A stretch of DNA of 64,000 nucleotides from Pseudobacteriovorax antillogorgiicola. GTDB lineage: Bacteria > Bdellovibrionota_B > Oligoflexia > Oligoflexales > Oligoflexaceae. The DNA is taken from positions 62,001 through 126,000 of the forward strand of contig NZ_FWZT01000021.1 of assembly GCF_900177345.1 (NCBI RefSeq). Direction: 5' to 3'. Each line of letters opens with the position of its first letter. The first letter of the stretch is position 1. The notes beneath the pieces were generated by a model. The model did not search any database. It was not told where the DNA came from and saw nothing but the letters and a program-made list of their open reading frames with translations. Positions 453-63,896 of this stretch are shown here, piece after piece. The position numbers were made by a program, and so were the translations under genes.

Positions 453-454
453 GT

Positions 455-1456: not shown

Positions 1457-1630
1457 TGCCGGCTCCTAGAGCCTTGGCTTCATGGGCGAATTTTAAAGTT
1501 ATTGATGTCCTCTTTAACTATCCCGGGTGACGGCTCTTCCCATTTTGCCCATTTGACGCGATAATATTGGTAAGCACTATCTGTAGAGCCCACAAGGTCG
1601 ATTGTTCTATCGTTGTTCAGAGGTAGTTGA

Positions 1631-14375: not shown

Positions 14376-14413
14376 TTGAATTCTTTATAAGTCATCAGAA
14401 AGCGCTCCATGTG

Positions 14414-15202
14414 CTACAACTCAAACCCCATACCAATGAGAACGGATCGGAACAGGTCTTCGTCAGAGGTGTCGCGCTTTTCGGTTTGGACCGTAACGTC
14501 CCCATTGTCATCAACAGTGGCGACTCCTATGTTACCTTCGAAGGCAATAGTACGACTGTTATGGGCTGAAGCCTCGACAATAAAAGAATAGTTGCTCCAG
14601 ATGACTGAAAACCCAAGAGTGACATCCAGGCCCTTGCTTGTAATATCAAGGGTCCCACTCCGCTCAACATTATCGATTCGGGACGAACCCTTGATTGAGC
14701 CGCTCGAATAGAAGCTGTAGTCGAGGCTAATGTAGGGGAGGAACGATTCCATATCGTAGAATGCAGTGGCTCGGACCCCCAGTTCAATCAGTTGACCCTC
14801 GTCAAAAAAATCATCTGTAGGGTTCAGCTGAAGGTAGCTCATGCTGGGACCAAACCGAACCGGGTAATCTTGAAATGACCACTCAGTTGTAAACTGAAAA
14901 ACGTCGGCGGCTAGATCCTGTTCATCATACCACCTGCGACCGAGAAGAACATTCAAATCCACCAGCCAGGGGCGTTGCATATTAATATCCTCGATGGGTT
15001 CGTCGCCATCGAGGTGGGTGTCCATATTTATGATATCGTCATCGTCAGCATCATCGGTACCATCTGAGTCAGCCGTATCCGACACTTGACTGGTATCTTC
15101 GGTATCAGAGGTCTCCTCTTTCGCCCCTGTGTCTGAGTTTTCGTCTGCTAGTCCGTGAGATGAATATAATGAAACGGCTAGAATCATCGGTACAATGCGC
15201 AT
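14414..15202 (-). CDS. Predicted outer-membrane beta-barrel protein with acidic N-terminal linker
   Basis: 262 residues. A signal peptide (MRIVPMILAVSLYSSHGLA) is followed by a strongly acidic, Asp/Thr/Ser-rich, probably disordered stretch (~20-75). Then come alternating polar/aromatic strands (~80-262) ending in GFEL, as in small outer-membrane barrels. No family recognised. It is convergent with the SpoIIE protein gene and has GAGGAG upstream of the ATG. Confidence 0.65.
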   Translation of the reverse strand: MRIVPMILAVSLYSSHGLADENSDTGAKEETSDTEDTSQVSDTADSDGTDDADDDDIINMDTHLDGDEPIEDINMQRPWLVDLNVLLGRRWYDEQDLAADVFQFTTEWSFQDYPVRFGPSMSYLQLNPTDDFFDEGQLIELGVRATAFYDMESFLPYISLDYSFYSSGSIKGSSRIDNVERSGTLDITSKGLDVTLGFSVIWSNYSFIVEASAHNSRTIAFEGNIGVATVDDNGDVTVQTEKRDTSDEDLFRSVLIGMGFEL

Positions 15203-15356
15203 GAACAGGACTCCTCAAATTTCATCATAGGTCCTATTGTATAACCAATGGTAGGTGCTGTCATCAATTTGACGGGAATATTTAGCCTAGCTCGCATAAT
15301 TGCGAATGAAGCTGGTGTGGCGATGTAAAATAACATAGTTACTTGTCGGCGTATGA

Positions 15357-16763: not shown

Positions 16764-16909
16764 GATAATTCCTTAGCGATTCAGTATGGCTATCGCCCCA
16801 AACAGCTGTCTCCCTGAGCCTAAAAAGCTAAAAGCTTGGAAAAACTAGGGATCTTAGTTGGATTGAAGAGAACGCCAAAGAATTACTGGCAACCAGGAAG
16901 TGGCTATCT

Positions 16910-18502: not shown

Positions 18503-18648
18503 GATACTCCCCTGCGGCAAAATTAATGTCTGACAAATAGATAGAATAATGACAAAATTATATCAATTATTAATAATAAAATGATAAAAATGGTGATAAA
18601 TTATCTATAATTGTGTTATTTTGCTGATGATTTGATAATTTTGTATCC
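18503..18648. promoter_or_regulatory. AT-rich divergent control region between asnB and the AsnC-type gene
   Basis: About 110 bases are almost pure A/T with repeated TTATCAAT/ATAATAAAA-type tracts and TGATAA/TTATCA steps. Such bendable DNA is typical of Lrp/AsnC binding regions, which wrap the octamer. No single clear palindrome stands out. Confidence 0.5.
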
Positions 18649-19116
18649 ATGGTGACCGACTTGAGTGAACAGATTGATAGTTTAGACCGCAAAATTCTTA
18701 GGCTTATGCAGCAAGACTCCAGAATGCCGTTTCTGGAAATCGCCAGGGAGTTGAAAGTTTCTGGGGGTACGGTTCACGGGCGGGTAAAGAAAATGAAGGA
18801 GATGGGGTTGCTTCTCGGTACGAGAATATCAATCGATCCGGGAGCTATGGGCTATCGTTTATCGGCATTTATTGGCATTCAAATCAACGAGGCAAGTCGC
18901 TTAAAGAACGTGGCCCAGGAGCTGAGCAAGCTTGCAGAAGTTTTAGAAATTCACTACACGACCGGAAATTTTGGTCTGCTGATAAAGATCTTGGTGCGTG
19001 AGACTGCTGAACTCTATGAGATATTATCCCAGAAAATTCAGCAAATCAAAGGAGTACAGTCAACTCAAACATTGATCATACTAAACACCATTCTTGAACG
19101 TGACTTACAGGTATAG
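18649..19116 (+). CDS. Lrp/AsnC-family transcriptional regulator
   Basis: 155 residues, family length. The N-terminal winged HTH (DSLDRKILRLMQQDSRMPFLE through GGTVHGRVKKMKEMGLL) is followed by an alpha/beta RAM ligand-binding domain (~75-155) with the usual TTGNFGLLIKI core. Family members bind amino acids and assemble as octamers. Placed head-to-head with asnB, it probably senses asparagine or a related amino acid and controls asnB and itself. No good Shine-Dalgarno is seen; the start could be this ATG or the next GTG. Confidence 0.9.
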   Translation: MVTDLSEQIDSLDRKILRLMQQDSRMPFLEIARELKVSGGTVHGRVKKMKEMGLLLGTRISIDPGAMGYRLSAFIGIQINEASRLKNVAQELSKLAEVLEIHYTTGNFGLLIKILVRETAELYEILSQKIQQIKGVQSTQTLIILNTILERDLQV

Positions 19117-19146
19117 AAGGGGCGCCTTGCGGCAACCCCAAGCTGA

Positions 19147-19608
19147 CTATAGAGATCCAGTAAGTGCAAGTTTGTAGGCATAGTATGCCGTACGGATGTC
19201 GTTGAACACGTCCTCAATATCCCGCTTTTGGTCACGGAAGGTTCTGGCGAGTTGACGCTTGGTTGAATCAATTTGGAAGAACAGTGTTTCGATTTCTTGT
19301 TGGTCTGCGAGTAGTTCTTCTTGAGGGGCTCCGGCAGCAGCGTCTTCGGCAGTGTATACAGCAAGTGCATTGAGTTCACGTGTCAGGCGAATCGCCTTTG
19401 ACTGATAGTACTTGCCGCGGCTACCTGATAGCTCAGATTCAACAAAGTCTTTTGCGAGGCGAGCACGGTAGGCTAAGTTGTAAGCAGCCCGCTCTACTTC
19501 GTCGAGGTTGACTTCGTCAGCGGCTTCCTGAGCGCTTACTACTGTTGGCATAAGGGTCATGGGGGCAAGAAGGCTGACGGACATGAGGATTTTCGCTAGA
19601 GTTTTCAT
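19147..19608 (-). CDS. Small helical exported protein
   Basis: 153 residues from an ATG behind AAGGAG. The signal peptide is clear (MKTLAKILMSVSLLAPM through VVSAQ, cleavage near residue 26). The mature part is mostly helical and charged with a repeated Arg/Leu/Ala pattern and no cysteine. It is a periplasmic or secreted protein of unknown role, convergent with the AsnC-type gene. Confidence 0.7.
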   Translation of the reverse strand: MKTLAKILMSVSLLAPMTLMPTVVSAQEAADEVNLDEVERAAYNLAYRARLAKDFVESELSGSRGKYYQSKAIRLTRELNALAVYTAEDAAAGAPQEELLADQQEIETLFFQIDSTKRQLARTFRDQKRDIEDVFNDIRTAYYAYKLALTGSL

Positions 19609-19843
19609 GATTTTCTCCTTTGTTTTAAGATCATTTATCTCTGTCTGATTCCAATTTAACAAGGGCTCCTCGATCGCTACAAGGTTTAAGGAACCAAGTG
19701 TTCTGTGAGCAAATTCCTTGTTGTGATATCAATGGGATATGGAGGAACATTGCTTTGTTTTTACGATGACACCGCTAAGTCCTTAAATCTGAGAGGAAAT
19801 ATTCCGTTACGGAAATGGCGCCTTGACGGATGGGAGTTCTTTA

Positions 19844-27633: not shown

Positions 27634-29895
27634 TTGAGACATTGGTTATTCATCTTAATCTTTCTCATCGCACCAAGCTTGGTAAAGGGAAGCACTGAGC
27701 CTTCTTATGAACTAAGCGAATATCGGCTTATGGTTGAAAATCTGCCTGAATTCTCTATCCGAGATGTGATGCTCAGCCAGCCCAACGAGTGGAGCCCACT
27801 ACCATCCAATCGTATCCAGCGGGGCCTGAATCCTGAAGCTAGCTGGGTCGCCGTTGACGTTAAGAATCTAAACGCTGAGCCATTGGAAATGGTGCTCTAC
27901 TTCGATCGATCGAATCTAGACCGTGTTTCGTTTAACCAGACAAGCCGGGGACAAGTGATTCATAGTATGCTGTCTGGAGACACCCTACCATTTGCAAATC
28001 GGCCGCTCGCCAGTCACCTTATAGGCTTTCCGTTTGAGCTTAAGGGACTAGAAGAGCAAACCCTGTACTTTCAAGTGACCACTGCTGGGGCTCATAATTA
28101 CGGGGTTTTTCTATTGGATCGAGATGAATTCTACGATCGCCTGCTGCTCCAGAATCTTGTATTCGGCGCTTTTTTTGGTATGCAAGGGCTCTTAGCTATC
28201 TATAACTTTTTTGTGTATCTGATCAGTCGCGATCGCAATAACTTATATTTTATCGGGTTTATCATTTCCACTATCTTCTTACAAGTTGCCTTGGAGGGAT
28301 GGGGATTCAAATATCTTTGGTCAGAAAGTATGTGGCTTCAGGAGCATATGGTTTCAACGTTAGCGCCCGTATTCTATCTATTTCTATTTCTATTTCTATC
28401 TGAGTTCTTAAGCTTGAGGCGCAATTCCGTGAAAGGATTCTTACTATGTTGGGGAGTGGTCCTCGTTCAAGTTGCCACTGCGCTAGCAACAATCTTCCTT
28501 GATGCCTTTAACTCTGCTGAGTTTGGGGTGGGCATCATGATTTTTAGTTCGATCTCTGGGTTTGCTTTTATTCCTGCTATCCTTAAGCAACAGAAACCAG
28601 CTTACTTCCTAATGGGGTGGCTATTTGTGATCGTGGCATCAGGAGTGGCAGTGACCCATACGGCAGGGATTTTTATGGGTCCCTGGAATATAAATCATGT
28701 TTATCGAAGCCTTTTGTGCGGCTCCCTGATCTCGTTTTCTTTTGCGCTAGCAGAACGCATGAGTAAGGCTCGCGAAGATCGCCGCCTTCTCAAAGAGGTG
28801 CTTGCAGGGCAGGTTCCTAAAACAGTTCTCAACGAACTTCTAGATCACCCTGATCACCTTAATCTTGAAGGAACAGAAAAAACAGTCACGATCATGTTTC
28901 TAGACATTGTCGGATTTTCTCACTCATCGAGCCTGCTCAAGCCAAAGGAAGCTTTTGCGGAACTAAAAGATCACTTGAACGATATCAAAGAGGTTATCCG
29001 AAAATATGGTGGCACTATCGATCGATCATTAGGCGACGGTATCCTCTGCTTCTTCGGTTATGCCCTGAATGGTAGGGATCAGTCTGATCATGCGAGTATG
29101 GCATTCAGAGCGGCTTCCGATATTCAGCGTCAGTCCGTTCAAAAAATATTAGATCGTTCACGGCGAGGGAAGGCGGTTTTCCCGTTTCGCATAGGAATCA
29201 ATACTGATAAGGTTTTTATTGGTAATCTTGGCGATCAGCATAAGATCGACTACACGATGATAGGCAATGCGGTGAACTTTGCAAGTCGCCTTGAAAGCGC
29301 ATGCAACCCATTTAAGATCATGATCAGTACGACGACTAAGAATCTTCTGAATCAATACGAATACAAAGAAGAGGCTCTTAATAAAATTCTAGTGAAGATG
29401 AAACACTTTCGAAACCTACAAGAGGCCTATGAATACAATCTGTATTTTAACAACAATGAACCGATCATCGAAGCGGAGAAGATCTACTGGAGCTTTGTGG
29501 GCTACTCGACCCGAGAACTAAGATATCGACTATCGAATCCAGGTGACATCTTCATCGAATCAGAAGTTGGCAGATTCGAGGTAGTCGACTTTTCAGAATC
29601 TGGCTTTGGCGTGATCGGCGACAACTTTCTGGGCCGCGGGGTTAATTTCTTAGCGCGACTCACAAACGTGGACAATCGGCTATCGCAGCTTTTGGATCAG
29701 CAATCCCTATCTAAAGTCAATCTAGAAGTATGTTGGGCAAGACCTTCGGGCACAAGGTTTAAACATGGTCTAAAATTAACGGGTCTTAATTCTAAGCAGA
29801 TCGAATACATCAATTATAGCATTAGGCGTTTGTTCAATACCGCTGAACTCAATCCTCAAGAGTCACCTTCTCAAATCGATAAAGGTTCAGCCTAA
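27634..29895 (+). CDS. Membrane class III adenylate cyclase with 7TMR-DISM sensor and C-terminal PilZ-like domain
   Basis: 753 residues; TTG start behind AAGGA. Order: signal peptide (~1-20); periplasmic 7TMR-DISM extracellular domain (~25-165); seven predicted membrane helices (~175-375); a class III cyclase domain (~410-595) with the first metal Asp in IMFLDIVGFS, the second in LGDGILCFFG, and GNAVNFASRLE carrying the transition-state Asn and Arg; and a C-terminal PilZ-like unit (~630-735) with EVVDFSESGFGV (DxSxxG). The product is probably cAMP, triggered by a periplasmic ligand; the PilZ-like end suggests c-di-GMP input, though its arginine motif (RYRL region) is weak. Confidence 0.87.
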   Translation: MRHWLFILIFLIAPSLVKGSTEPSYELSEYRLMVENLPEFSIRDVMLSQPNEWSPLPSNRIQRGLNPEASWVAVDVKNLNAEPLEMVLYFDRSNLDRVSFNQTSRGQVIHSMLSGDTLPFANRPLASHLIGFPFELKGLEEQTLYFQVTTAGAHNYGVFLLDRDEFYDRLLLQNLVFGAFFGMQGLLAIYNFFVYLISRDRNNLYFIGFIISTIFLQVALEGWGFKYLWSESMWLQEHMVSTLAPVFYLFLFLFLSEFLSLRRNSVKGFLLCWGVVLVQVATALATIFLDAFNSAEFGVGIMIFSSISGFAFIPAILKQQKPAYFLMGWLFVIVASGVAVTHTAGIFMGPWNINHVYRSLLCGSLISFSFALAERMSKAREDRRLLKEVLAGQVPKTVLNELLDHPDHLNLEGTEKTVTIMFLDIVGFSHSSSLLKPKEAFAELKDHLNDIKEVIRKYGGTIDRSLGDGILCFFGYALNGRDQSDHASMAFRAASDIQRQSVQKILDRSRRGKAVFPFRIGINTDKVFIGNLGDQHKIDYTMIGNAVNFASRLESACNPFKIMISTTTKNLLNQYEYKEEALNKILVKMKHFRNLQEAYEYNLYFNNNEPIIEAEKIYWSFVGYSTRELRYRLSNPGDIFIESEVGRFEVVDFSESGFGVIGDNFLGRGVNFLARLTNVDNRLSQLLDQQSLSKVNLEVCWARPSGTRFKHGLKLTGLNSKQIEYINYSIRRLFNTAELNPQESPSQIDKGSA

Positions 29896-31378: not shown

Positions 31379-32188
31379 TTACTGACATTCACAAAGATCT
31401 TTTGGGCAAAAACTCGGAACCTGGTTGCAATTTTCATTGCACCATTCAGCGTCAGCCCCTGAAAATGGCTTGGCATTACAGAGAAGCTTAGAAGTTGTCT
31501 GGCTTAACTGGCTAGCTTCATCGTCGCAATCATCTCCAGTTGGAAAACTGGGATTGCCGTTATCTGTATCCGGCGAATTTGAGTCGCCTGGTGTTCCATC
31601 ACCACCGCCATTCGAGCCATTAAAATCCACATCTATGACTTGGTAGAAGGTTGCAGCAGTATCACCCACATCCCAAAGGGCTAGGATAACATGATAGCCG
31701 CTTCTCTCAGGTAGCTGACAGTCATGAGATATATCCGCAGGAGGTTTTGCCATTGCACCGTCGACTACACAGAACGGCTCAAGATCAAACGCCTGTCGTG
31801 ATAAAGGTTCAGATGGATTCCAGTCAGGCTTTGTTAAAAAGTACCTCCAATCCTTGGTCACATGAGGTGCTGTGAAATGCCACGAGAACGTATTGGTTCC
31901 CGATTTGATGGCAACCTTATTCCATCGACCAGGGGACTGTTCGTTAAGCGGAGACCAAGAAGCGCTCGCAGCAGCCGCAATTTGTCCATCGGCTGCACCG
32001 GCTTCGGGAAAACCATCTGGTCCTTCCACACTTTGCGGTTCGTATTGCACAGCACCACAATTTTGATTACTTCCTTCTTTGCACAAAAGTGAGCGTGACT
32101 TAGGCTCACTCATGTAACCATGAGCTAAGGCAAGAATTGGGTAAGATAAGAATATTAGAATGCAGAGTGTATTAAATAGTGTCTTCAT
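31379..32188 (-). CDS. AA10 lytic polysaccharide monooxygenase with a C-terminal Cys-rich module
   Basis: 269 residues from the ATG that gives a clean signal peptide (1-22, ending ALA) and exposes His23 as the mature N-terminus, the first ligand of the copper histidine brace. The second His is in FSWHFTAPH. The [15 protein letters not shown] and FYQVIDVDF segments are typical of AA10. After a Gly/Asp/Ser/Pro linker (~195-225), a short module ends in [18 protein letters not shown], probably a disulfide-knotted binding domain. AA10 enzymes cleave chitin or cellulose oxidatively. It is secreted, and the next gene upstream is a chitin-binding-like lipoprotein on the same strand. Confidence 0.93.
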
Positions 32189-32241
32189 TTGCGTCCGTCT
32201 CAAATTAATTAATCATCAGAACATGTTTAGAGTGCGTGAAC

Positions 32242-52636: not shown

Positions 52637-53089
52637 TCATTCCCCTTTATATTCAGACATCCGCTGATGGGCGTTACGAAGGCGTTTACCAATGATCCTG
52701 CAAATATTGAGCATGATTATGCCGAAAATTCGGGGGTTTTTATCGAAGAGATCCATAATTGCAGCGTGCTTAACTTCTAGGACTGCGCACCGGGTTCTTG
52801 AAATAATGTCGATACCGTAAGGCTTTTCGTCGAGAATCATCAGAAGGCCGAAAACCTCCCCTGGCTTCAATTTTTCAACGTTAAACTTGGTTCCGCCCAT
52901 GGCATTTTTTTGAATCTCGGCAATACCCTCGAGGAGAATAAAAATTTGATTTCCCTTGTCACCTTCTTGAATGATCAATTCGTTTGGTTTGTAGTGATGA
53001 ACAGATTGAGAACGGAGGATTCTCTCGACCTCATCTTCGTAAAGTTCAAAGAAAAGCTCGCATCCTTTTAAAACGTGATCGAGTGCCAT
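52637..53089 (-). CDS. Cyclic-nucleotide-binding-fold protein, last gene of the stator-like operon
   Basis: 150 residues: one CRP-type beta-roll (IIQEGDKGNQIFILLEG, then KLKPGEVFGLLMILDEKP) with a C-terminal helix and no HTH, so not a transcription factor. The phosphate-binding cassette is degenerate: after GEVFGLL the usual Arg-[AT]-A is PYGID, so cyclic-nucleotide binding is uncertain. The ATG lies 3 bases after the stop of the MotA/TolQ-like gene, so it is cotranslated and may regulate that channel. The window also has a cyclase (27634-29895). Confidence 0.82.
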   Translation of the reverse strand: MALDHVLKGCELFFELYEDEVERILRSQSVHHYKPNELIIQEGDKGNQIFILLEGIAEIQKNAMGGTKFNVEKLKPGEVFGLLMILDEKPYGIDIISRTRCAVLEVKHAAIMDLFDKNPRIFGIIMLNICRIIGKRLRNAHQRMSEYKGE

Positions 53090-53092
53090 GGC

Positions 53093-54019
53093 TTACGATG
53101 CTCCTCGTTCAATATCCGATGGCGGCTGGCTACTATCTTGGGATGCGATATCTCGAATCTCCGCCAGGAGTTTGACGGCTTCTTGGTTTGACTTACGTAA
53201 ATTTTCTATGGCTTCGATCATCTTATATTCACCATGACTTAATTTATTGCCATGAATTCGATACCACATAAATTCAATAGCACGTTCGAAATTTTTAGAC
53301 ACTTCATTGCGAACAGAAGCAAGGGGAAACAAAGACGTTATTAGAGTCATCGTCACACTGAATACGATACCTGCGATGGATGTATTCATAGAATAGGCAA
53401 CACCACCAACGAAAGCATTCAGAACGGGAGCTGCTTCATCAAGTTTGGTGATATCAATTTGGGCGATCATAGGCAGTGCCGAGGTGATACCCACAAAAGT
53501 ACCGAAGATACCTCCGACAATGAACAGATTTGGTAGTAAGTCCAAACCACGATTTAGTGAGTTTACTGGTAGAATCTTTAGGATATTTCGCCAGTTAGGG
53601 TCTTGGTTGAGAACGCGATCGGCAAGTTCCATGAAGTTTGGTGGGTGAGGGCTTTTTAGGGCGTCCACCTGTTGTTTGATGGCTAATATAACGCTCCGCT
53701 TACTATCTGTAAATTCCGATAGCCGTTGCTTCTGTTTCTCCTCAGTTTTACGAAACCGTAAAGATCGATCCGGCAAGTGTTCCTCGATTTTATAGAGTAA
53801 GTTCTCTAGCCAGATCTCGACATCATCGACACTTTCATGCTTAGCTTCCTCTTCTTCAAGCTGCTTAATCACCGCATGAGAGAAACTATTGAAGTAGGCT
53901 TTGTTCACTTTATTGTTGTTATGAGCAATATACCGGAGGATAAGAGCAATCACGCAGGTGATTGCCATAATTTGTATCAGATAAGCGGCGGCAATATTAA
54001 ATATCTCAATGACCGACAT
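53093..54019 (-). CDS. MotA/TolQ/ExbB-like proton-channel protein, partner of the giant coiled-coil protein
   Basis: 308 residues. N-terminal membrane helix (~8-30), a charged cytoplasmic helical region (~35-165), then two membrane helices with family sequence: LFIVGGIFGTFVGITSAL (~175-195) and GGVAYSMNTSIAGIVFSVTM (~220-245). The three-helix layout is TolQ/ExbB-like. A charged C-terminal tail follows. The start overlaps the end of the giant gene by 14 bases. The family forms a pentamer around a dimer of the B-type subunit and couples ion flow to mechanical work. Confidence 0.9.
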   Translation of the reverse strand: MSVIEIFNIAAAYLIQIMAITCVIALILRYIAHNNNKVNKAYFNSFSHAVIKQLEEEEAKHESVDDVEIWLENLLYKIEEHLPDRSLRFRKTEEKQKQRLSEFTDSKRSVILAIKQQVDALKSPHPPNFMELADRVLNQDPNWRNILKILPVNSLNRGLDLLPNLFIVGGIFGTFVGITSALPMIAQIDITKLDEAAPVLNAFVGGVAYSMNTSIAGIVFSVTMTLITSLFPLASVRNEVSKNFERAIEFMWYRIHGNKLSHGEYKMIEAIENLRKSNQEAVKLLAEIRDIASQDSSQPPSDIERGAS

Positions 54020-57000
54020 TCACAGGCCCCTTGTTTTGGAGTTTGTCCGCAATTATATCGAAGTGACGTTCTGCATCTTTCTGGTCTTTTAGAACGAAAT
54101 TGATCTCTACCCTACGTGATTTCTTGCAGTGGTATGGTCCGCACATGCACTCCTCGTATCGAAACTTGTTCCACTTATCTTTAAGACAGCGGTCATTTTC
54201 TTGTAATTTAACGGGGTCCATGAAACCTTTTCCAGAAACACTAGTCAGCGCTCGCATCTTGTTTTTATACCTATAATTACCCACTTCATCACCAAAAGCG
54301 AATTCTACAATCTGCTGGGCACGATTGAGAGAAAGCTCCAGGTTGTATTGGTAAGCGATGCCGCGAGTGGTGAAAGGATCTACATACTTCCTCTTGTACT
54401 TAGGGCTTGCAAATCCAGCAATGGAAATGCCATCGATTCGATTTGCGATATCGGGTGCACCTAAGAGGCTCTTCGCATAAATAGGTATCATACGACTTAG
54501 TTTCGCCTTCGCGGTTTCGCTGAGTTGATAGCTATCGTTTTTAAAATAGAAGGATTCATCCATGCGGAGAGTGATGTTACCTGTTTCAGGGTTGATATCA
54601 ACTTCGATGCCGGAAGCTCTGAGGTTGTCTGCTATTCGGGAAGCGATAGTTTTGCGCTCGTTGGCGACTCGTTGCATAGCTGATCGAGCACCTTCAAGCG
54701 TTTGCGCGACGTCTTTGATCTGATCATCCTTCGTGCGTAGTTTTGCAGCCATTTTCATGCCGACATCTTTCTGCTCTTCTATCTTCTCGGCCAGACGATC
54801 GATCTCTTTGTCTTTGGTTTTGATTGCTTTTGTTGTATTTGCCAAGCGCTCGATCAATTGACGGTTTTGGTCGCCGCCCTTGTCAAATGCTTGCGCAATC
54901 CGATTATTTCGATCGTTCAACTTTCCGATTTGCCGGATGGCTTTGGCTAAGTTATCTTTAGTTGTCCGTATCTTCTCAAGTAGGTCTGCAACTTGCTTCT
55001 TGGCGTTGATTAATTCTGGACTTGGCTGGCTGACAAGCTGTTGTGGAGCACCTGTTCCTGGCCCTTGGCCTTCACCTTGACCAGCACCAAGACCTTGTCC
55101 CTGGCCAGCACCAAGACCTTGTCCCTGACCAGCACCAAGACCTTGTCCTTGCCCTTGACCCATGCCAGGCCCCTGCCCTGGGCCTTTGCCTGGAGGAGGT
55201 GTTGTCATGGTGAGAGCTTTGCGAAGGCCTTGGTTGTCATCTTTCAGGTTTTTAACTTGGTCTTTAAGGGCTGCAACTTGATCTTGGAAATTAGCGATCA
55301 AAGATCCTGAGCTGCCAAAGCGATTTTCTTGAGGTACAGTAACTTCCGTTGGCTTCTTGTCGAGAGCTGCGACTAACTGTTGCCGTTGATCTTGCAAGGT
55401 GTCTATTTTATTGTTGGCATTGGCTAGTTGGTTCTTCAGGTCATCCATCTCGTCAAGTGCCTTCAAGAGCTTACCCTTTTGACTAGCCGCATCCCCCATG
55501 GCCTTACCCAGATCGCCTTTTAAGGTTTCATTACTATCTTTTCGTTGAGCTAAGGTCTGGTTTAGCTGCTGATTCTGAGCTTTCATTTTATCCAAGTCAT
55601 CCTTGAGGCGTTTCATTTCATTGCCCATGCGATCAATCTCTTTTTGGGCTTGCCCCAGGTTATCTTGGAGGGTTTTGTTAGTGCTGCCACCCTTAGCCAG
55701 TGCTTGTCCTAGGTCATTCTTCGTGTTTTGAAGCTTTGCCAGATCACCCTTTAGCTTGCCTATTTCATTTCTCAGCTGGTCATTTTCACCTTGGGCCTTG
55801 CCTAAAGCTTGCTTTAGACCTTGATTCTCGGCATTACCTTTTGCTAAAGCCTGACCTAGCTTCTCGTTATTTCCCTTAGTCTTGCCTAGCTCTCCTTGGA
55901 GTTTACCTAATTCACCTTTCAGCTGAGCAACCTGCCCTTGGGCTTTGCCAAGAGCGCTCTTGAGCCCCTTATTTTCCGCATTGCCATCAGCTAGGGCTTG
56001 TCCGAGTTTGCCAAGATCTCCTTTGGCTTTGCCTAGTTCACCCTGGAGTTTGCCTAATTCACCTTTCAGCTGTCCAACCTGCCCTTGGGCTTTGCCAAGA
56101 GCGTCTTTGAGACCTTTATTTTCCGCATTGCCGTCAGCAAGTGCTTGGCCTAATTTACCAAGTTCCCCTTTGGCTTTGCCTAGTTCTCCTTGGAGTTTAC
56201 CTAGCTCTCCCTTTAGTTGACCAAGCTGGCCTTTGGCCTTGCCGAGCTCCCCTTGTGCTTTGCCAAGCTCCCCTTTAGCTTTGCCAAGAGCACCTTTGAG
56301 GCCTTCATTTTCTGCTTGACCATCAGCAAGTGCCTTGCCAAGGCGACCGTTCTCCCCTTGTAGCTTACCAACTTGGCCCTTAAGTTCTCCTACTTGCCCT
56401 TGTAACTTGCCGACCTGCCCAGCGAGGCCTTGATTCTTAGAGTTACCCTGGCCCAATGCCTCGGCAAGTCCTTGGTTTTCACCGCGAAGCTTGTCATTCT
56501 CTCCTTGAAGTTTTCCGACTTGGCCTTTGAGTTTGCCAACTTCTCCCGCAAGCTTGTCGTTTTCGCTTTTTCCCTTACCTAAGGCTTTGCCAAGAGCATC
56601 ATTTTTACCTTTTAGCTCTGCCAATCCACCTTTTAACTTGCCGATTTCTCCCTTTAGCTTACCAATTTCGCCATTGAGTCGGTCATTTTCGGTTTTGCCT
56701 TTTCCTAGAGCATTGCCAAGTTCTTTGTTTTTACCTTCCAGCTCAGCAATCCCACCTTGTAAATCGCCAATTTTCCCCTTGAGTTTTCCTAACTCGCCAT
56801 TGAGTTTTTGATTCTCTGTCTTGCCCTTACCCAGAGCATCACCAAGTTCTTTATTCTTTCCTTCTAATTCAGCGATGCCTCCCTGGAGTTCGCCAATCTT
56901 GCCTTTGAGTTTTCCAATTTCACCATTGAGCTTTTGATTTTCGGTTTTACCCTTGCCAACAGCGTTGCCTAGTTCTTTGTTCTTGCCTTCTAACTCAGCA

Positions 57001-60000
57001 ATGCCCCCTTGGAGTTCTCCGATCTTACCCTTGAGCTTGCCGATTTCACCATTAAGCTTTTGGTTCTCGGTTTTGCCTTTACCCAAAGCGTTACCTAGCT
57101 CCGTGTTCTTGCCTTCCAGCTCAGCCATTCCGCCTTCCAGCTCACCAACCTTACCTTTGAGCTTGCCAATCTCTCCCATCAACTTCTTATTTTCAGTTTG
57201 GCCTTTGCCCAAGGCTTTGCCTAATTCAGTGTTCTTGCCTTGAAGCTCAGCATTAGCTCCTTCCAACTCGCCTACCTTGCCCTTGAGTTTTCCAACATCA
57301 CCGGCAAGCTTTTGATTCTCTGCCTTGCCTTTGGCAATATCACCTTGAGCTTTACCAAGGGCCTTTTTGAGGCTTTCATTCTCAGTTTTAGCCTGGCCAT
57401 TTTCGGCTTGTAGGTTCTTATTATCAGCTTCAGACTTGGCCAGTTTGCCAGTAAGGTCTTTAACCTGACCTGCCAAGGACTTAGCCTCCGCTTTGCTCTT
57501 ACCGAGAGCGGTTTTAAGAGCTTTGTTCTCACCTTCTTGTGCTTTCATCTTGGCATCTTTTGCCTTGCTTTCTCCTTGGGCCTTAGCTAGCGCTGTTTTC
57601 AAAGATTTATTCTCGGATTGTGAATCTTTGGCCTCACCTTGAGCTTTGGCAAGAGCTTTGCTCAAGCTATCATTTTGCTTTGAAAGCTCGGAATTCTTGG
57701 TCTCTTGAGACTTGGCTTCACCCTGCGCTTTGGCGAGGGCTGTTTTCAAAGACTTGTTTTCAGACTTAGCGTTTTTAGCGTCGTTCTGTGACTTGGCTAG
57801 TGCCTTGCTCAAGGACTCATTCGTTTTGCTAAGCTCAGTATTCTTGGCCTCGTTTGCCTTGGCCTCACCCTGACTCTTGGCAAGTTTGGTCGTTAAATCC
57901 TTGATTTCTTGCTTGGACTGTGTTTGGGCCTGCTGCGATTTCGCTAGAGCTTTTGTGAGTTGCTGATTCTGTTGTTGAGAATCTTGAATGGTCTTTTCCT
58001 GCTGTTTCACCTTAGCTTGAGACTGGGCTACCTGTTGAGTCAAATCCTTTACTTGTTGCTCCGCTTGAGTTTTCTGCTGGTTTGTTTGGGCCAAAGCCTT
58101 AGTGAGCTGCTTATTCTTCTGCTCTTCTTGCTTGGCTTGAGCTTGGACTTGAGCGACCTTTTTAGTGAGCTCTTTGTTCTGCTCTTGCGCCTCGTTTTTT
58201 TCTTGTGTGACCTTGGCAATAGCTTTTGTGAGCTGCTGGTTTTTCTGCTGTTCTTGAGCGACCTTTTGCTGTTCTTGCTGAACCTTCTGCTCTTGCTGCT
58301 TGATCTGGGCTTGAGTCTGGGCCACTTTTTTAGTTAGTTCTTGATTTTGCTTTTGTGCTTCAGTTTTTTCTTGTGTGACCTTTGCGATGGCTTTTGTGAG
58401 CTGCTGGTTTTTCTGTTGTTCCTGAGCGACCCTTTGTTGCTCTTGCTGTACCTTCTGCTCTTGCTGCTTGATCTGGGCTTGAGTCTGGGCCACTTTTTTA
58501 GTTAGTTCTTGGTTTTGTTTTTTTGCCTCAGTGTTTTCTTGTGTGACCTTGGCAATAGCTTTTGTGAGCTGCTGGTTTTTCTGCTGTTCTTGAGCGACCT
58601 TTTGCTGTTCTTGCTGTACCTTCTGCTCTTGTTGTTTAACTTGTGCCTGGGTCTGCGCGATTTTTTTAGTTAGTTCTTGGTTTTGTTTTTTTGCCTCAGT
58701 GTTTTCTTGTGTGACCTTGGCAATAGCTTTTGTGAGCTGCTGGTTTTTCTGCTGTTCTTGAGCGACCTTTTGCTGTTCTTGCTGTACCTTCTGCTCTTGT
58801 TGTTTAACTTGTGCCTGGGTCTGCGCGATTTTTTTAGTTAGTTCTTGGTTTTGTTTTTTTGCCTCAGTGTTTTCTTGTGTGACCTTGGCAATAGCTTTTG
58901 TGAGCTGCTGGTTTTTCTGCTGTTCTTGAGCGACCTTTTGCTGTTCTTGCTGAACCTTCTGTTCTTGTTGTTTAACTTGTGCCTGGGTCTGCGCGATTTT
59001 TTTAGTTAGTTCTTGGTTTTGTTTTTTTGCCTCAGTGTTTTCCTGTGTGACCTTGGCAATAGCTTTTGTGAGCTGCTGGTTTTTCTGCTGTTCTTGGGCG
59101 ACCCTTTGCTGTTCTTGCTGAACCTTCTGCTCTTGTTGTTTAACTTGGGCTTGAGTCTGTGCCACCCTTTTAGTTAGTTCTTGGTTTTGTTTTTTTGCCT
59201 CAGTGTTTTCTTGTGTGACCTTGGCAATAGCTTTTGTGATCTGCTGGTTTTTCTGTTGTTCCTGAGCGACCCTTTGTTGCTCTTGCTGTACCTTCTGCTC
59301 TTGTTGTTTAACTTGGGCTTGAGTCTGTGCCACCCTTTTAGTTAGTTCTTGGTTTTGTTTTTTTGCCTCAGTGTTTTCTTGTGTGACCTTTGCGATAGCT
59401 TTTGAAAGCTGCTGGTTTTTCTGCTGTTCTTGAGCGACCTTTTGCTGTTCTTGCTGAACTTTTTGCTCCTGCTGCTTGATCTGAGCTTGAGTTTTAGCCA
59501 CCTGCTTGGTAAGGTCTTTAACCTGCTGCTGAACTTGAGTTTTTTCTTGATTGACCTTTGCGATAGCTTGGGTTAGTTGTTGAGTCTTTTTTTGCTCTTG
59601 ATCAAGCTTTCTTTTTTCTTGCTCGACAGCTTGCTCCTGCTGTTTGACCTGAGCCTGGCTTTGGGCCACTTTTTTTGTGAGGTTTTGAACCTGCTTCTGA
59701 GTTTTGTCCTTCTCCTGAATAGCTTTTGCTACCGCCTGGTTGAGTTGCTCGTTTTTCTTCTTCTGTTCTTTGACCGCCACTTCCAAAGCTTTTTTCTGAG
59801 CCTCGACAGTTTTGGTTTCTTCTTGCTGTTTTGCTAGCTGCGCTTGGGTTTGCGCTTGCTTTGTCTGAGTCTTTTTGAGCTGCTCCTGAACTTTCTTAGA
59901 ATCCTCAGAAAGGTTTTGGACTTTCAGATCAAGGTTTTCAATTTTCTTTTGAGACTCTAGCTGTTCACTTGCCTTTTTGGCTATCTGCTGCTCAAGCTTT

Positions 60001-61499
60001 TGATTGGATTTCGCAGTTTCTTGTATCTTTTGGTTTAAGTCTTTAACTTCTTCCTTAAGCTTCGACGATTCAGCATTTTGTTGTGCAAGCTTCGTCTGGA
60101 TCTGCTTGTTAACTTTTTCCAGATCCTGTACTTCTTTCTGCTTGTCTTTGATATCCTTAATGTTCTTTTGGATAACCTTCTGTTGATTTTGGTTTGACGA
60201 GGTTAGAGTCTTAACCGTCTGGTCAAGTTGCTTATTTTTCTCTTCTATCTTCTTTAGATCATCTTGCTTTTCTGTGATCTCTTTTTTTAAGTCGTTTTGG
60301 TTCTGAGCCAGCTTTACAATGTTTTTCTTGTAGGTGTCGATCTCTTCATTTTTCTTCTTGATCGCATCCTCAAGCTTCTCTTGCTCAGTTTTTGTCATCT
60401 TTATTTGCTGCTCAAGGGCTTTTGTCTTGGCTTCAGAGCTAACTTTGACGTCTTTAACCTCAGTCTCAAGTTTCTTGATGTCTTGATCCTTGACTTCAAC
60501 CTTCTTTTTCTGTTCTCTAATTTCGTCCTGAGACTTAACAAGAGCTTTCTGAAGAAGTTGCTTCTGGTTATCCTGCTTTTTAATTTCCTCTTCAAGCTTC
60601 TTCTTTTCTACCTCGCTTTTATCTTCAGAGTTTTTGAGCGTTACTTTCAGTTTATCAATCTCTGATTCTTTCTTTTTGATGTTCTCTTGTTTTTCTTTGA
60701 TTTCCTGCTGGGTTTTCGCCAAAGCTTTTTTGAGCTGCTCTTGTGTCTTTAGCTCTTCTAAAATTTTTTTGTTTAGACTCAACTCTGTTTGCTGAGCCTT
60801 TTCTTTGATATTTTCAACGTTCTTTTCTAGGCTTTTGATGTTTTCAGTTTGTTTTACAATAGTATCCTGTTTCTCTTTTAGGTCGACTTCTTTCACTTTA
60901 ACGTCGTTTACAAGCTTCTGCTTATCGCTTTCAGTTTTTTCAAGAACTTTTTCAAGTTCCTCGTTTTTGATCTTAGCTTCAGCCATCTTCTTTTTGAGGT
61001 CTTCGATCCGTTTTGAAATGTCGGTGACTTTGATATCGCGAACTTTGATTTCTTCTTTCTGCTCAGTGATTTCTTCTTTTTGTTTTTTGATGACATCTTG
61101 CGCTTGTTTGATAACCGCTTCGTTTTCATTCTGTTGCTTGTAGAGCTGTTCGATCGCATCTTCACGCTCTTCTAGAGCAGAAGTGATTTCGCCAATTTGC
61201 TTGAGACTCATTTCAAGAAGCTCTTTCTTTTGAGCCATCTCTTTGAGGTCTTTCTTAGCTTTATCCATGTTCGATTGGTTGGCTTGTTTGGTTGCTTCGG
61301 TCAGTTTACCCATGAGGTATTCTTGAGCTTCTTTTTTCTCCTGCTGAACAGCGAGTTGGGACGCACCCGATTGTAAGATCGAGAAAACGAACATGATTAG
61401 AAAGATAACAGCTACCGCCATGAACAAGTCACTATTGGACGTCCAGGGATCGTTCTGTTGGTTTTCTTCCTCGTCGCGCCTAGGCCTTCTATCTCGCAA
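54006..61499 (-). CDS. Giant coiled-coil MotB/OmpA-like protein (~2497 residues)
   Basis: The start is most likely a TTG at 61499, behind GGAGGA; a TTG at 61526 has no ribosome site. Order: basic/acidic N-terminus; one membrane helix (~24-42) beginning SDLFMAVAVIFLIMF with Asp24 where MotB has its proton-carrying Asp; then a coiled coil of ~2000 residues. The coiled coil has an N-terminal Lys/Glu-rich part, a Gln-rich 56-residue repeat block, mixed helices, Gly/Lys-rich 42- and 49-residue repeat blocks and a Gly/Gln/Pro linker. A second coiled coil follows, and last an OmpA-like domain (final ~190 residues) with LSLNRAQQIVEF and SRRVEINFVL. The usual GHTD is GFAS, and a cluster CMCGPYHC is inserted. 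It is coupled to the MotA/TolQ-like gene, so it is the B-subunit of an ion-driven machine. It may span the periplasm or run along it. Confidence 0.9.
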   Translation of the reverse strand: MRDRRPRRDEEENQQNDPWTSNSDLFMAVAVIFLIMFVFSILQSGASQLAVQQEKKEAQEYLMGKLTEATKQANQSNMDKAKKDLKEMAQKKELLEMSLKQIGEITSALEEREDAIEQLYKQQNENEAVIKQAQDVIKKQKEEITEQKEEIKVRDIKVTDISKRIEDLKKKMAEAKIKNEELEKVLEKTESDKQKLVNDVKVKEVDLKEKQDTIVKQTENIKSLEKNVENIKEKAQQTELSLNKKILEELKTQEQLKKALAKTQQEIKEKQENIKKKESEIDKLKVTLKNSEDKSEVEKKKLEEEIKKQDNQKQLLQKALVKSQDEIREQKKKVEVKDQDIKKLETEVKDVKVSSEAKTKALEQQIKMTKTEQEKLEDAIKKKNEEIDTYKKNIVKLAQNQNDLKKEITEKQDDLKKIEEKNKQLDQTVKTLTSSNQNQQKVIQKNIKDIKDKQKEVQDLEKVNKQIQTKLAQQNAESSKLKEEVKDLNQKIQETAKSNQKLEQQIAKKASEQLESQKKIENLDLKVQNLSEDSKKVQEQLKKTQTKQAQTQAQLAKQQEETKTVEAQKKALEVAVKEQKKKNEQLNQAVAKAIQEKDKTQKQVQNLTKKVAQSQAQVKQQEQAVEQEKRKLDQEQKKTQQLTQAIAKVNQEKTQVQQQVKDLTKQVAKTQAQIKQQEQKVQQEQQKVAQEQQKNQQLSKAIAKVTQENTEAKKQNQELTKRVAQTQAQVKQQEQKVQQEQQRVAQEQQKNQQITKAIAKVTQENTEAKKQNQELTKRVAQTQAQVKQQEQKVQQEQQRVAQEQQKNQQLTKAIAKVTQENTEAKKQNQELTKKIAQTQAQVKQQEQKVQQEQQKVAQEQQKNQQLTKAIAKVTQENTEAKKQNQELTKKIAQTQAQVKQQEQKVQQEQQKVAQEQQKNQQLTKAIAKVTQENTEAKKQNQELTKKIAQTQAQVKQQEQKVQQEQQKVAQEQQKNQQLTKAIAKVTQENTEAKKQNQELTKKVAQTQAQIKQQEQKVQQEQQRVAQEQQKNQQLTKAIAKVTQEKTEAQKQNQELTKKVAQTQAQIKQQEQKVQQEQQKVAQEQQKNQQLTKAIAKVTQEKNEAQEQNKELTKKVAQVQAQAKQEEQKNKQLTKALAQTNQQKTQAEQQVKDLTQQVAQSQAKVKQQEKTIQDSQQQNQQLTKALAKSQQAQTQSKQEIKDLTTKLAKSQGEAKANEAKNTELSKTNESLSKALAKSQNDAKNAKSENKSLKTALAKAQGEAKSQETKNSELSKQNDSLSKALAKAQGEAKDSQSENKSLKTALAKAQGESKAKDAKMKAQEGENKALKTALGKSKAEAKSLAGQVKDLTGKLAKSEADNKNLQAENGQAKTENESLKKALGKAQGDIAKGKAENQKLAGDVGKLKGKVGELEGANAELQGKNTELGKALGKGQTENKKLMGEIGKLKGKVGELEGGMAELEGKNTELGNALGKGKTENQKLNGEIGKLKGKIGELQGGIAELEGKNKELGNAVGKGKTENQKLNGEIGKLKGKIGELQGGIAELEGKNKELGDALGKGKTENQKLNGELGKLKGKIGDLQGGIAELEGKNKELGNALGKGKTENDRLNGEIGKLKGEIGKLKGGLAELKGKNDALGKALGKGKSENDKLAGEVGKLKGQVGKLQGENDKLRGENQGLAEALGQGNSKNQGLAGQVGKLQGQVGELKGQVGKLQGENGRLGKALADGQAENEGLKGALGKAKGELGKAQGELGKAKGQLGQLKGELGKLQGELGKAKGELGKLGQALADGNAENKGLKDALGKAQGQVGQLKGELGKLQGELGKAKGDLGKLGQALADGNAENKGLKSALGKAQGQVAQLKGELGKLQGELGKTKGNNEKLGQALAKGNAENQGLKQALGKAQGENDQLRNEIGKLKGDLAKLQNTKNDLGQALAKGGSTNKTLQDNLGQAQKEIDRMGNEMKRLKDDLDKMKAQNQQLNQTLAQRKDSNETLKGDLGKAMGDAASQKGKLLKALDEMDDLKNQLANANNKIDTLQDQRQQLVAALDKKPTEVTVPQENRFGSSGSLIANFQDQVAALKDQVKNLKDDNQGLRKALTMTTPPPGKGPGQGPGMGQGQGQGLGAGQGQGLGAGQGQGLGAGQGEGQGPGTGAPQQLVSQPSPELINAKKQVADLLEKIRTTKDNLAKAIRQIGKLNDRNNRIAQAFDKGGDQNRQLIERLANTTKAIKTKDKEIDRLAEKIEEQKDVGMKMAAKLRTKDDQIKDVAQTLEGARSAMQRVANERKTIASRIADNLRASGIEVDINPETGNITLRMDESFYFKNDSYQLSETAKAKLSRMIPIYAKSLLGAPDIANRIDGISIAGFASPKYKRKYVDPFTTRGIAYQYNLELSLNRAQQIVEFAFGDEVGNYRYKNKMRALTSVSGKGFMDPVKLQENDRCLKDKWNKFRYEECMCGPYHCKKSRRVEINFVLKDQKDAERHFDIIADKLQNKGPVNVGH
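55080..55151 (-). repeat. Three 24-bp tandem repeats encoding an 8-residue Gly/Gln unit
   Basis: Three almost identical 24-bp copies, each encoding Q-G-Q-G-L-G-A-G, in the flexible linker between the main rod and the C-terminal coiled coil/OmpA-like part. Copy number may vary among strains. Confidence 0.85.
55674..56300 (-). repeat. 49-residue (7-heptad) repeat block
   Basis: About four units of 49 residues (147 bp spacing; starts near 56300, 56118, 55967 and 55820), beginning LKxALGKAQG and rich in GKLxGELGK. Leu/Val recur at 3-4 spacing, so the coiled-coil register is kept, with about two Gly per heptad. Confidence 0.75.
56420..57310 (-). repeat. 42-residue (6-heptad) repeat block
   Basis: About seven units of 42 residues (126 bp), consensus starting LNGEIGKLKGKIGELQGG and ending GKGKTENQK. 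The pattern L-x3-I-x2-L-x3-I fits a coiled coil. Confidence 0.8.
58190..59545 (-). repeat. 56-residue (8-heptad) tandem repeat block
   Basis: Eight copies at an exact 168-bp spacing (marker segments at 58220, 58388, 58556, 58724, 58892, 59060, 59228 and 59396); central copies look identical or nearly so over the whole unit. The unit contains KVAQEQQKNQQLTKAI, KVTQENTEAKKQNQELTK and AQTQAQVKQQEQKVQQEQQ. The DNA identity shows recent duplication or gene conversion. Confidence 0.9.
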
Positions 61500-61717: not shown

Positions 61718-62707
61718 CTATGAGCAGCACGACGCGGACACCCGCTTTTTGGAGCCATCTTTAGTCGCATAGCAGTAGTTCTTTGGCGTCCAGTAGGGCT
61801 TCAAACCGCAGGTTGAAGGCAAGTTTGGATTGTTAGGCATAGGTTTCGATGGTGCTGTTGAAGGAGGCTCTTGGCTAGCAAAGTTCAGCTGCAATTCAAT
61901 GGGGTAGTGGTCAGAAACTTTCTTGGCTGCCGCTAAACTTAAGTTGTAGGCCTCTTGGTAATCGAAAACTGCAGCCTTGCTCACTTTAGGGCTTAGCGCC
62001 TCGGTGGTAATGAATCGGTCATAGGCACAGTGCGTTGCAGAGACTGTCGTGTCCTGATGGTCTTCGATCCAAACTTTAATCTTGTGATCGATCATGGAAA
62101 AGCCTAGGGATTCAGGGTTAAAGTAATCGCAGTCGGCATTTAGATCGCCCATGACCAAGATAGCGTTCATGCTGTGTTGGTCCTTCACATAGGAAACCAC
62201 GTCTCCGAGCGCTCGTAGCTCCTGCTCCACATCATCGGGCTTCACGTGGATTCCAATTGTTGCAAAGCGAAACGCCCCGGGGGTTTGCCAAATGGCAATA
62301 TAAGGTTCTCGCTCAAACCGATCATCCCAGTCTTGATACACTTCGCTGTGAATGAGTTTAATCCGATCATCGTTGTAAAGGTAAGCATATTGCTCCCGAG
62401 AACTCGTTCGGCCCAAGGCTTTGCTCACTGTGATCTGATATTTGTGGCTATTGAAGCGATTGGTCTGTTCTTGGAGCTTGTAAATTGCCTCGTCCGTGTT
62501 GTCGCGAATTTCTTGAATAAACGTGAGATCGTTGCGGTTCAAAATGTTTGTCAGATGCTCCATGACGTGAGACTTGCTCACTTTGGAACGGCCCAGGACC
62601 TGGATGTTGAAGGCAGACAGATGAAGACTGTTAGAGGCAATCGCAAATTCAGGTGAGGGCAAAGTTGCAAAAATAGCAATAAGCAGAGCGGCAGCGATTT
62701 TCTTCAT
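61718..62707 (-). CDS. Secreted endonuclease/exonuclease/phosphatase-family protein
   Basis: 329 residues from the ATG giving a clear signal peptide (MKKIAAALLIAIFATLPSPE, cleavage near residue 25); a longer start has none. DNase I-like fold: LSAFNIQVLG, FIQEIRD (catalytic Glu), GIHVKP, VMGDLNADCDYF and SDHYPIEL (catalytic His). A Pro/Ser linker and a Cys-containing tail (CGLKPYW...SASCCS) follow. It is probably an extracellular or periplasmic nuclease. Confidence 0.9.
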   Translation of the reverse strand: MKKIAAALLIAIFATLPSPEFAIASNSLHLSAFNIQVLGRSKVSKSHVMEHLTNILNRNDLTFIQEIRDNTDEAIYKLQEQTNRFNSHKYQITVSKALGRTSSREQYAYLYNDDRIKLIHSEVYQDWDDRFEREPYIAIWQTPGAFRFATIGIHVKPDDVEQELRALGDVVSYVKDQHSMNAILVMGDLNADCDYFNPESLGFSMIDHKIKVWIEDHQDTTVSATHCAYDRFITTEALSPKVSKAAVFDYQEAYNLSLAAAKKVSDHYPIELQLNFASQEPPSTAPSKPMPNNPNLPSTCGLKPYWTPKNYCYATKDGSKKRVSASCCS

Positions 62708-63143
62708 AAAAACCCCAGTTGAGTCGAAAGCTGGCCTCATAGATGCCGGAAATTATTCTCTTGGGCAAGGACATATTAGTAAAGATTTTATAATGCTTAT
62801 CCAAAATTTAGATATCCCTTTTGGGTTAAATTTAGATCTAATTAACTGATAAAATTGAAATATATCCTTGTGGCGTGGTGAAAGGGGGCTTTACAAGATC
62901 TTAAAAATATAATTGCAAGTGACTTCTTTTCAAGCTCGCTCAATTTTAACTTAGTAAATATGTAATAGAAAATTGGCTCGCATATCAAATGGAGTGCGTG
63001 TGAGCCTTGACTAGAAAATATCGAATCTCATAACAAGCCGATTTTTTTGTCTTTTATGGAAGCTCGTTAAGGTTTCCTTAAGAAGTGCCGATAGGCGGAT
63101 AGGCACTTGTTGCCTGGGACCAAATACTTTAGAGGAATCAGCC
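62708..63143. other. Intergenic region upstream of the Cys-cluster lipoprotein
   Basis: 436 bases, very AT-rich in the left half (TTAGAT repeated near 62807-62836; CCAAAA...TTTTGG hairpin at ~62802-62826). On the right are the palindrome TTAAGGTTTCCTTAA (~63068-63082) and the hairpin at 63083-63108. These are probable control elements of the lipoprotein gene. No gene seen. Confidence 0.5.
63083..63108. repeat. Hairpin just upstream of the Cys-cluster lipoprotein
   Basis: Perfect 7-base arms AAGTGCC / GGCACTT around a 12-base loop GATAGGCGGATA, abutting a TTAAGG/CCTTAA palindrome. It ends 35 bases before the GTG. It may be an operator pair or a 5' leader structure. Confidence 0.45.
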
Positions 63144-63896
63144 GTGAAACGATTGTTAATACTCGTATCCATAATTGGGTCGTTGAGTGCTTGCCGTGCA
63201 TCATTCCAAAGTACCGACGAATCTTCTGCCCTTAGCGCCGAAGCAGTTCCTGAAGAGGAAGGTAAAGGTACTGAAGACCTCGGTTCAGGTGGTCCAGACG
63301 AATTTCCAACGTTACCAGATGATAAAGGTGTGATCGACGACGATGGCTCCAATGATAACGACGGAGTTAAGATAACGATCACCATCCCATTTGGCCCAGG
63401 GGAAGACGATAACTGCCCTTACGGCGGTGAAAAAACTATTGTCGGCATCGATAAAAACGGCGACGGACAAATCTCGGAAGACGAGGTGATCGAAGTTTCT
63501 TACGAATGCCTCGACAAGCCGAAAGACGATAAAAATTGCTGCTGTTGCTGCTGCTACTGGACAGACGGCAAGGCGAGCACTAGTTCTAGCTCTGATAATA
63601 AAACATGTTGCTGTGCCGAATCGGGTTACAGTGCTTCGGGAAGCAAGTCAGGGGATGATACAGCTAAGTGCTGCTACTGCTGTGATGACAAGGGTTCTTA
63701 CACAGCTCAAGGAGGCGATGATAAAGCCTATCAATGTTGCGATTGCTGCAAGTCGGGCTACACGACTTCAGGGTCGCATTCTGGGGATAAACCAAACTGC
63801 TGTTGCTGCTGCTGTAAAGACCATTCTTACAGTACATCAGGATCACATGATAATCCTTCACAAAGTGATGGTTGCCAGTGCTCTTGCCCCAAGTAA
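63144..63896 (+). CDS. Lipoprotein with a DUF7151-like Ca-type motif and clustered cysteines
   Basis: 250 residues; GTG behind AGAGGA. Lipobox SLSAC (Cys17). Acidic linker (~20-90), then CPYGGEKTIVGIDKNGDGQ ending SYECL (~92-128), which resembles DUF7151 and has an EF-hand-like Ca loop (DKNGDGQISEDE). Next come five to six units, each a cysteine run (CCCCCC, CCC, CCYCC, CCDCC, CCCCCC, CQCSC) followed by Tyr/Ser/Gly/Thr-rich GY[ST][AT]SGS-type segments (~130-250). About 30 cysteines in the last half suggest metal binding or dense disulfides at the cell surface. The repeated cysteine part has no family I know. Confidence 0.78.
   Translation: MKRLLILVSIIGSLSACRASFQSTDESSALSAEAVPEEEGKGTEDLGSGGPDEFPTLPDDKGVIDDDGSNDNDGVKITITIPFGPGEDDNCPYGGEKTIVGIDKNGDGQISEDEVIEVSYECLDKPKDDKNCCCCCCYWTDGKASTSSSSDNKTCCCAESGYSASGSKSGDDTAKCCYCCDDKGSYTAQGGDDKAYQCCDCCKSGYTTSGSHSGDKPNCCCCCCKDHSYSTSGSHDNPSQSDGCQCSCPK

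Follow-up and report, generated by a model that had tools for sequence, protein, structure and literature searches.

An operon related to ZorAB in Pseudobacteriovorax antillogorgiicola pairs a short A subunit with a 2,497-residue B subunit carrying a predicted coiled-coil rod

A family of ion-driven motor relatives with the rod on the B subunit

We analysed a stretch of 64,000 nucleotides from Pseudobacteriovorax antillogorgiicola (RefSeq assembly GCF_900177345.1, contig NZ_FWZT01000021.1, positions 62,001 to 126,000; hereafter the window) in which three minus-strand genes encode, head to tail, a giant MotB/ZorB-like protein (B), a short channel protein (A) and a small protein with a cyclic-nucleotide-binding (cNMP) fold. 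This operon probably specifies a 5:2 membrane complex of the ZorAB/MotAB superfamily that is driven by ions and tethered to the cell wall, together with a cytoplasmic regulatory partner. Its architecture, a long rod on the wall-bound B subunit beside a short A subunit, recurs across a family that appears to be undescribed and of which the window's B is one extreme member. We found no description of a family combining a rod-bearing B, an A and an FHA protein in the open-access literature, subscription papers lying beyond that search.

The coordinates of the operon and its parts are given in Table 1. An earlier note made on this DNA from the sequence alone had described three coupled genes, and the 14-nt overlap of B with A and the 3-nt gap that follows are confirmed on the minus strand. 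The B frame is open already from a TTG at 61526; we prefer the start listed in Table 1 because of the GGAGG upstream of it, and counting from there the membrane Asp is residue 24, in agreement with the earlier note. Extension of the operon in either direction was rejected: a secreted endonuclease-like gene upstream (61718-62740) and cupredoxin/peroxidase genes downstream are set off by spacings of ~180-220 nt, and these genes are not conserved. Promoter and terminator scans of the operon region gave hits at chance level only, and there are no flagellar genes among the annotated neighbours.

Table 1. Features of the B-A-cNMP-fold operon (window positions).
Feature	Position	Strand	Evidence
B subunit, MotB/ZorB-like, 2,497 aa	54006..61499	(-)	TTG 61499 start, GGAGG 5 nt upstream
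Asp24 and following single transmembrane helix (DLFMAVAVIFLIMFVFSIL)	61371..61430	(-)	Asp invariance, alignment to ZorB D26, hydropathy peak
Predicted coiled-coil rod, residues about 46-2100	55200..61364	(-)	Heptad periodicity, composition
Eight tandem 56-residue (8-heptad) repeats, residues 680-1127	58119..59462	(-)	TRF, 168-bp period
Six tandem 42-residue (6-heptad) glycine-containing repeats, residues 1436-1687	56439..57194	(-)	TRF, 126-bp period
Gly/Gln/Pro-rich hinge, residues 2101-2154	55038..55199	(-)	GPGQGPG...GAGQGQ run; TRF, 24-bp period
OmpA-like (ZorB/MotB-type) periplasmic domain, residues 2273-2497	54009..54683	(-)	Alignments, AF2, fold search
A subunit, ZorA/TolQ/ExbB-like channel protein, 308 aa	53093..54019	(-)	Profiles, AF2 model, fold search
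Cyclic-nucleotide-binding-fold protein, 150 aa	52637..53089	(-)	PF00027 E 2.5e-18; alignment to PKG domains

The A and B subunits are closest to ZorA and ZorB

Profiles built from 76 A sequences, 59 B N-termini and 74 B C-termini were searched against solved structures. The best matches were 8qyh_A for A (E 7.5e-8), 8qyd_F for the B N-terminus (E 8.6e-6) and 8vvi_A for the B C-terminus (E 9.4e-9), and since all three profiles return Zorya subunits first, ZorA and ZorB are the closest relatives among solved structures. Asp24 of B aligns with D26 of ZorB 8qyd_F. The earlier note had named a non-conserved membrane Asp as grounds for giving up its reading; this residue is invariant, being kept in all 59 aligned B relatives. 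In the A subunit T174 and S214 are likewise invariant and align with ZorA T147 and S184 (residue numbers counted off the alignment); in ZorAB and MotAB the conserved Ser/Thr residues of A ring the membrane Asp (PMC11890865).

The AlphaFold2 (AF2) model of A has a pLDDT of 86, and its long helices at 14-59, 152-186 and 193-230 are predicted to form the transmembrane core. The modelled helices end at residue 295, so that a long C-terminal cytoplasmic tail is absent, and complete A proteins across the family are 268-436 aa long. In the structural comparison ZorA ranked first for this model but weakly (VIA Z 11.7, rmsd 6.0 over 225 residues), with ZorA, ExbB and TolQ tied within 1 VIA Z; for helical bundles a VIA Z below about 13 is weak by itself, and ZorA is favoured as the relative of A because of the sequence profile rather than this ranking. 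The A protein scores below the cut-offs of both the PF01618 MotA_ExbB model (14.4 bits vs 22.9) and the NCBIfam ZorA models (best 30.4 bits vs 100).

For the C-terminus of B the AF2 model (pLDDT 82) ranked ZorB first (8vvi_A, VIA Z 16.4, rmsd 5.8 over 190 residues; Foldseek E 1.0e-7), and the periplasmic domains of MotB, MotS and PomB matched it at Z 11-13. The PADLOC model ZorB1 PDLC00609 matches B both at the N-terminus (E 3.6e-7) and over the C-terminal 225 aa (E 7.2e-30), and PADLOC ZorB models match the B C-termini of 74/74 relatives. Family alignments reveal an invariant Cys pair in the OmpA-like domain (2453 and 2458), which would suit a periplasmic disulfide, and an invariant Arg (2393) within an NxxLSxxRA motif. 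The claim that the giant keeps both the membrane Asp and a C-terminal OmpA-like fold thus stands, as does the broader assignment to a MotAB/ZorAB-type pair, with A having a fold of the TolQ/ZorA type.

The rod of the giant B subunit is built from heptad multiples

The B frame with its rod is real, beyond chance. Proline is absent from residues 19-2049, all 25 of the 25 strongest autocorrelation lags in the rod are multiples of 7, and the hydrophobic periodicity peaks at ~3.5 residues in most 100-residue blocks. Tandem units of 56, 49 and 42 residues occur, all of them whole heptads. Adjacent 56-residue units are 90-99% identical in DNA (81% for the last pair) and show 62 synonymous versus 19 non-synonymous codon differences, with codon position 3 carrying 70 of 90 changes; the array is therefore translated and held by purifying selection. 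A second, short helical stretch lies between the glycine-rich hinge and the OmpA-like domain. Matches of B to ATG16, SMC, Rad50, crescentin and the like in Pfam and NCBIfam were set aside as mere coiled-coil similarity.

Between the transmembrane helix and the glycine hinge lie about 2,058 residues, for which we predict an extended length of ~305 nm at 0.1485 nm per residue, close to the ~2000 residues and ~300 nm first estimated. The periplasm is usually 20-30 nm wide, and a straight rod of the predicted length would far exceed it, as had also been pointed out.

The family is common in Bdellovibrionota and its other rods are shorter

A scan of 85,000 species yielded 99 loci. The B C-terminus was found in 183 of 368 sampled Bdellovibrionota genomes, and the family also occurs in some Delta- and Gammaproteobacteria; in the window's own group 7 of 58 genomes carry it. 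In almost every complete locus B immediately precedes A, usually with a gap of 5-30 nt. The window operon shares the defining traits, namely B upstream of a short A, an Asp within WxSxSDLF, the Cys pair and a rod in B, and in the A tree it sits on a long branch with two relatives. One Bdellovibrionota genome, which we take to be that of the laboratory strain Bdellovibrio bacteriovorus HD100, has, near 1.108 Mb, an operon for a B of 529 aa, an A of 301 aa and an FHA protein of 794 aa, placing the family in this organism as well. Viral contigs and plasmids held no relative and the operon is chromosomal, and a mobile or phage origin was rejected.

Complete B proteins outside the window are about 480-973 aa long, and their rods, almost free of proline, span 255-746 residues with a median of 404 (about 60 nm). 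None of ~150 further frames listed in the Bdellovibrionota sample exceeds 760 aa, which leaves the giant as the sole case among more than 200 B proteins seen. Its closest relative (genome G002, locus L020) has an A protein 62% identical, the same cNMP-fold gene and a B of about 690 aa (at least 650 aa from within the transmembrane helix onward). Both ends of this protein align with the window's B at 36-38% identity, and most of the middle is absent from it. In the clade's third member (G023:C219) the sequence is truncated by a contig end.

The earlier note had asked whether the giant size is conserved among homologous pairs, and it is not. Other B proteins, the closest included, being far shorter, we regard the rod of the giant as a feature common to all the family that was lengthened in this lineage only. 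The geometric puzzle likewise concerns the family at large, because a rod of 60 nm is already longer than the periplasm is usually wide. Orthology to a normal-length B gene with a known role had been named as evidence that would count against the first interpretation: normal-length orthologues exist, and for these we found no known role. The suggestion that the rod measures length fares poorly, given that B length varies among orthologues, and was rejected as the leading explanation, the closest relative having a far shorter rod with the same partner genes.

Two further sets of loci extend the picture. The window's own genome holds a B-A paralogue (G000:C11:49238-52055; L019 7238-10055) with a B of 590 aa and an A of 343 aa, which is without a third gene and falls on another branch of the A tree than the window operon. 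Six loci in gammaproteobacterial metagenome-assembled genomes (L055, L058, L065, L079, L086 and L097) encode B proteins of 767-973 aa; in these the stop of B adjoins or overlaps the A start, and no FHA gene follows A.

The third gene usually encodes an FHA protein

By Pfam, an FHA domain is present in the third gene of 44/71 loci and the cNMP fold in 2/71, the window and its nearest relative. The usual third protein consists of an FHA domain, a long coiled coil, one transmembrane (TM) segment and, in the periplasm, a domain of about 170 aa. In Pseudobacteriovorax sp. DT_89 (G001), of the same taxonomic family, an FHA-less version of this coiled coil-TM-periplasmic partner lies divergently beside B (L023 12263-14884); the periplasmic domain of the G001 partner, searched for in the window's genome and 37 relatives, was found only in G001.

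The window's third protein had been called a cyclic-nucleotide fold, and the fold itself is borne out by its PF00027 match, while the phosphate-binding cassette has lost its usual Glu and Arg (FGLLMILDEKPYGID vs FGERALLYDEPRSAT in PKG), as has that of the cNMP-fold gene in the nearest relative. With Glu and Arg lost, the protein may bind another ligand or act as a scaffold. Elsewhere in the window (27634-29895) a 7TMR-DISM receptor is fused to an adenylate/guanylate cyclase domain, a possible source of cyclic nucleotide.

Comparison with known systems

Like Zorya ZorAB (types I/II; 8qyd, 8vvn, 8vvi), the operon has a homologous channel subunit, an OmpA-type B with the same membrane Asp, aligned Thr/Ser residues and a wall-binding-type domain ending B. 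It differs in that ZorA carries a long cytoplasmic tail that A lacks here, whereas the periplasmic B carries a coiled-coil rod of 255-746 residues (~2,050 in the window); the contrast drawn in the earlier note, a long element on B here and on A in Zorya, is upheld. The third gene also differs, being FHA or cNMP-fold, and PADLOC detected no ZorC/D/E-type effector in the ten neighbours tested (window 38.8-63.9 kb) or in the upstream gene. With no A tail, no Zor effector among these neighbours and sub-cut-off scores, the window operon is not Zorya as defined, and automatic Zorya annotation can catch relatives that are unlike Zorya.

The operonic A/B pair, the Asp-bearing B helix and the OmpA-like C-terminus recall the flagellar MotAB/PomAB stator, but the B linker is much longer here, and with A below the MotA_ExbB cut-off the operon is not a flagellar stator by Pfam. 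TolQR, ExbBD and AglRQS share the fold of A (TolQ/ExbB, VIA Z about 11) and a membrane Asp; in these the B partner is of the ExbD/TolR kind, whereas B here has an OmpA-type domain and no match to the ExbD/TolR domain PF02472 in Pfam scans, so by its B domain the operon is not ExbBD/TolQR either. A survey of MotAB relatives describes non-flagellar B subunits as lacking OmpA-like domains and leaves Zorya outside its phylogeny (PMC12505986), and for both reasons the rod-B family falls between its categories.

The usual third protein resembles GltG (PglI) of the Myxococcus gliding machine, which has an FHA-TM architecture (PMC3169522), in combining an FHA domain, one TM segment and a periplasmic domain. 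It differs in the long coiled coil between FHA and TM and in that no TonB domain was detected; the likeness is one of architecture, with homology seen in the FHA domain. Membership of the window operon in an Agl-Glt system was rejected, since its third gene is cNMP-fold rather than a GltG-type FHA-TonB gene and a separate Agl-Glt-like cluster exists.

The 5:2 ion-driven motors share a core and differ in the position of the lever, and this family puts the rod on the wall-bound subunit. Its natural rod lengths, ranging between about 40 nm and more than 300 nm, form a length series for testing force transmission or wall sensing.

Proposed mechanism and alternatives

We propose that two B subunits would place their Asp-bearing helices inside a channel formed by five A subunits, and that B would run into the periplasm as a coiled coil ending in a peptidoglycan-attached OmpA-like domain. 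Tension or contact on this tether, or its position on the wall, might gate ion flow, which in turn would turn or strain A against B. The third-gene protein, usually FHA-coiled coil-TM and here a degenerate cNMP-fold protein, may read or set the state of A/B in the cytoplasm as a signalling output. The window rod was probably lengthened about five-fold through in-register duplication of heptad multiples, and at that length it would have to follow the wall, double back on itself or form a loop. More tentatively, and with less confidence than in the complex itself, the family could be one of wall-tethered 5:2 motors with the lever on the periplasmic subunit, a mirror of Zorya, that work with phosphothreonine (FHA) or cNMP-fold partners as a sensor of envelope mechanics; the window's ~300-nm rod might then run laterally and couple distant points of the envelope.

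Several observations weigh against this proposal. The Foldseek match of A to ZorA is weak (E 1.6e-3, TMq 0.34), the cNMP domain is without canonical ligand residues, and the coiled coil of the rod is read from periodicity and composition. The canonical motif of OmpA-type wall-binding loops includes the Asp of 'TD', and in B this residue is replaced (GFASPTY, of GFASP type), so wall binding could differ.

The rod might instead be a passive wall tether or spacer whose length drifts through repeat slippage, the giant being a neutral expansion. This we consider rather unlikely but worth retaining: B does contain tandem DNA repeats, the nearest relative has a B of only ~690 aa beside the same A and cNMP genes, and the giant is unique among the more than 200 B proteins. 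Yet those other proteins keep within a fairly narrow size range, the repeats are under purifying selection and in heptad register, and the residues of the ion pathway are invariant.

We doubt that the operon encodes a motor that moves cells over surfaces or remodels the envelope, as in gliding or predation, with the rod as force arm. Beyond the three genes no gliding-gene homologue is common to the loci, marine Gammaproteobacteria carry the family without an FHA gene, and the same contig has a separate gene cluster for an Agl-Glt-like motor (L119); these points offset the wide distribution in Bdellovibrionota, HD100 included, and the resemblance of the FHA-TM partner to GltG (PglI) (PMC3169522).

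A divergent Zorya anti-phage system, in which phage attack would trigger AB ion flow and the release or activation of a cytoplasmic effector, is very improbable, even with ZorA and ZorB as the closest relatives of A and B and ZorB models matching 74/74 B C-termini. Zorya defence requires wall binding, ion flow and, in types I and II, the ZorA tail (PMC11890865), which A lacks. Neither the ten neighbours nor the upstream gene gave a ZorC/D/E-type match, scores are far under the NCBIfam cut-offs (30 vs 100 bits), viral contigs and plasmids gave no relative, and where a defence island would be patchy, the family is present in half of the Bdellovibrionota genomes in the sample. A chromosomal family this common in the phylum gives no support to the defence effector first suggested, and a gliding role is likewise not supported.

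It is very unlikely that misassembly of the repeats accounts for part of the 2,497-aa length: the assembly is in 68 contigs and the eight 168-bp units are near-identical, but most units differ from one another, mainly at third codon positions, the reading frame is unbroken throughout, and an error in the array could not have created the giant because most of the rod lies outside it and about 2,050 residues remain with all eight repeats removed.

Other genes of the contig and the window

In the genome 18 places score above the Pfam cut-off for MotA/TolQ/ExbB, a rich complement of such channels. An Agl-Glt-like cluster, which gives the contig a second ion-driven motor system, extends from L119 (G000:C21:46000-65900, bases 9284-19791) into window 1-3790, with a TolQ/ExbB-like protein of 222 aa, two ExbD-like proteins, large repeat-type proteins and then an FHA and TonB_C protein (window 1631-3790). 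Elsewhere the window encodes a single chain of 1,738 aa with Ser/Thr kinase, AAA, TPR, GAF and SpoIIE phosphatase domains (9159-14375), an LPMO_10-type lytic polysaccharide mono-oxygenase (31379-32203) and a lipoprotein-like protein that matches DUF7151 and has several stretches of cysteines in a row (63144-63896).

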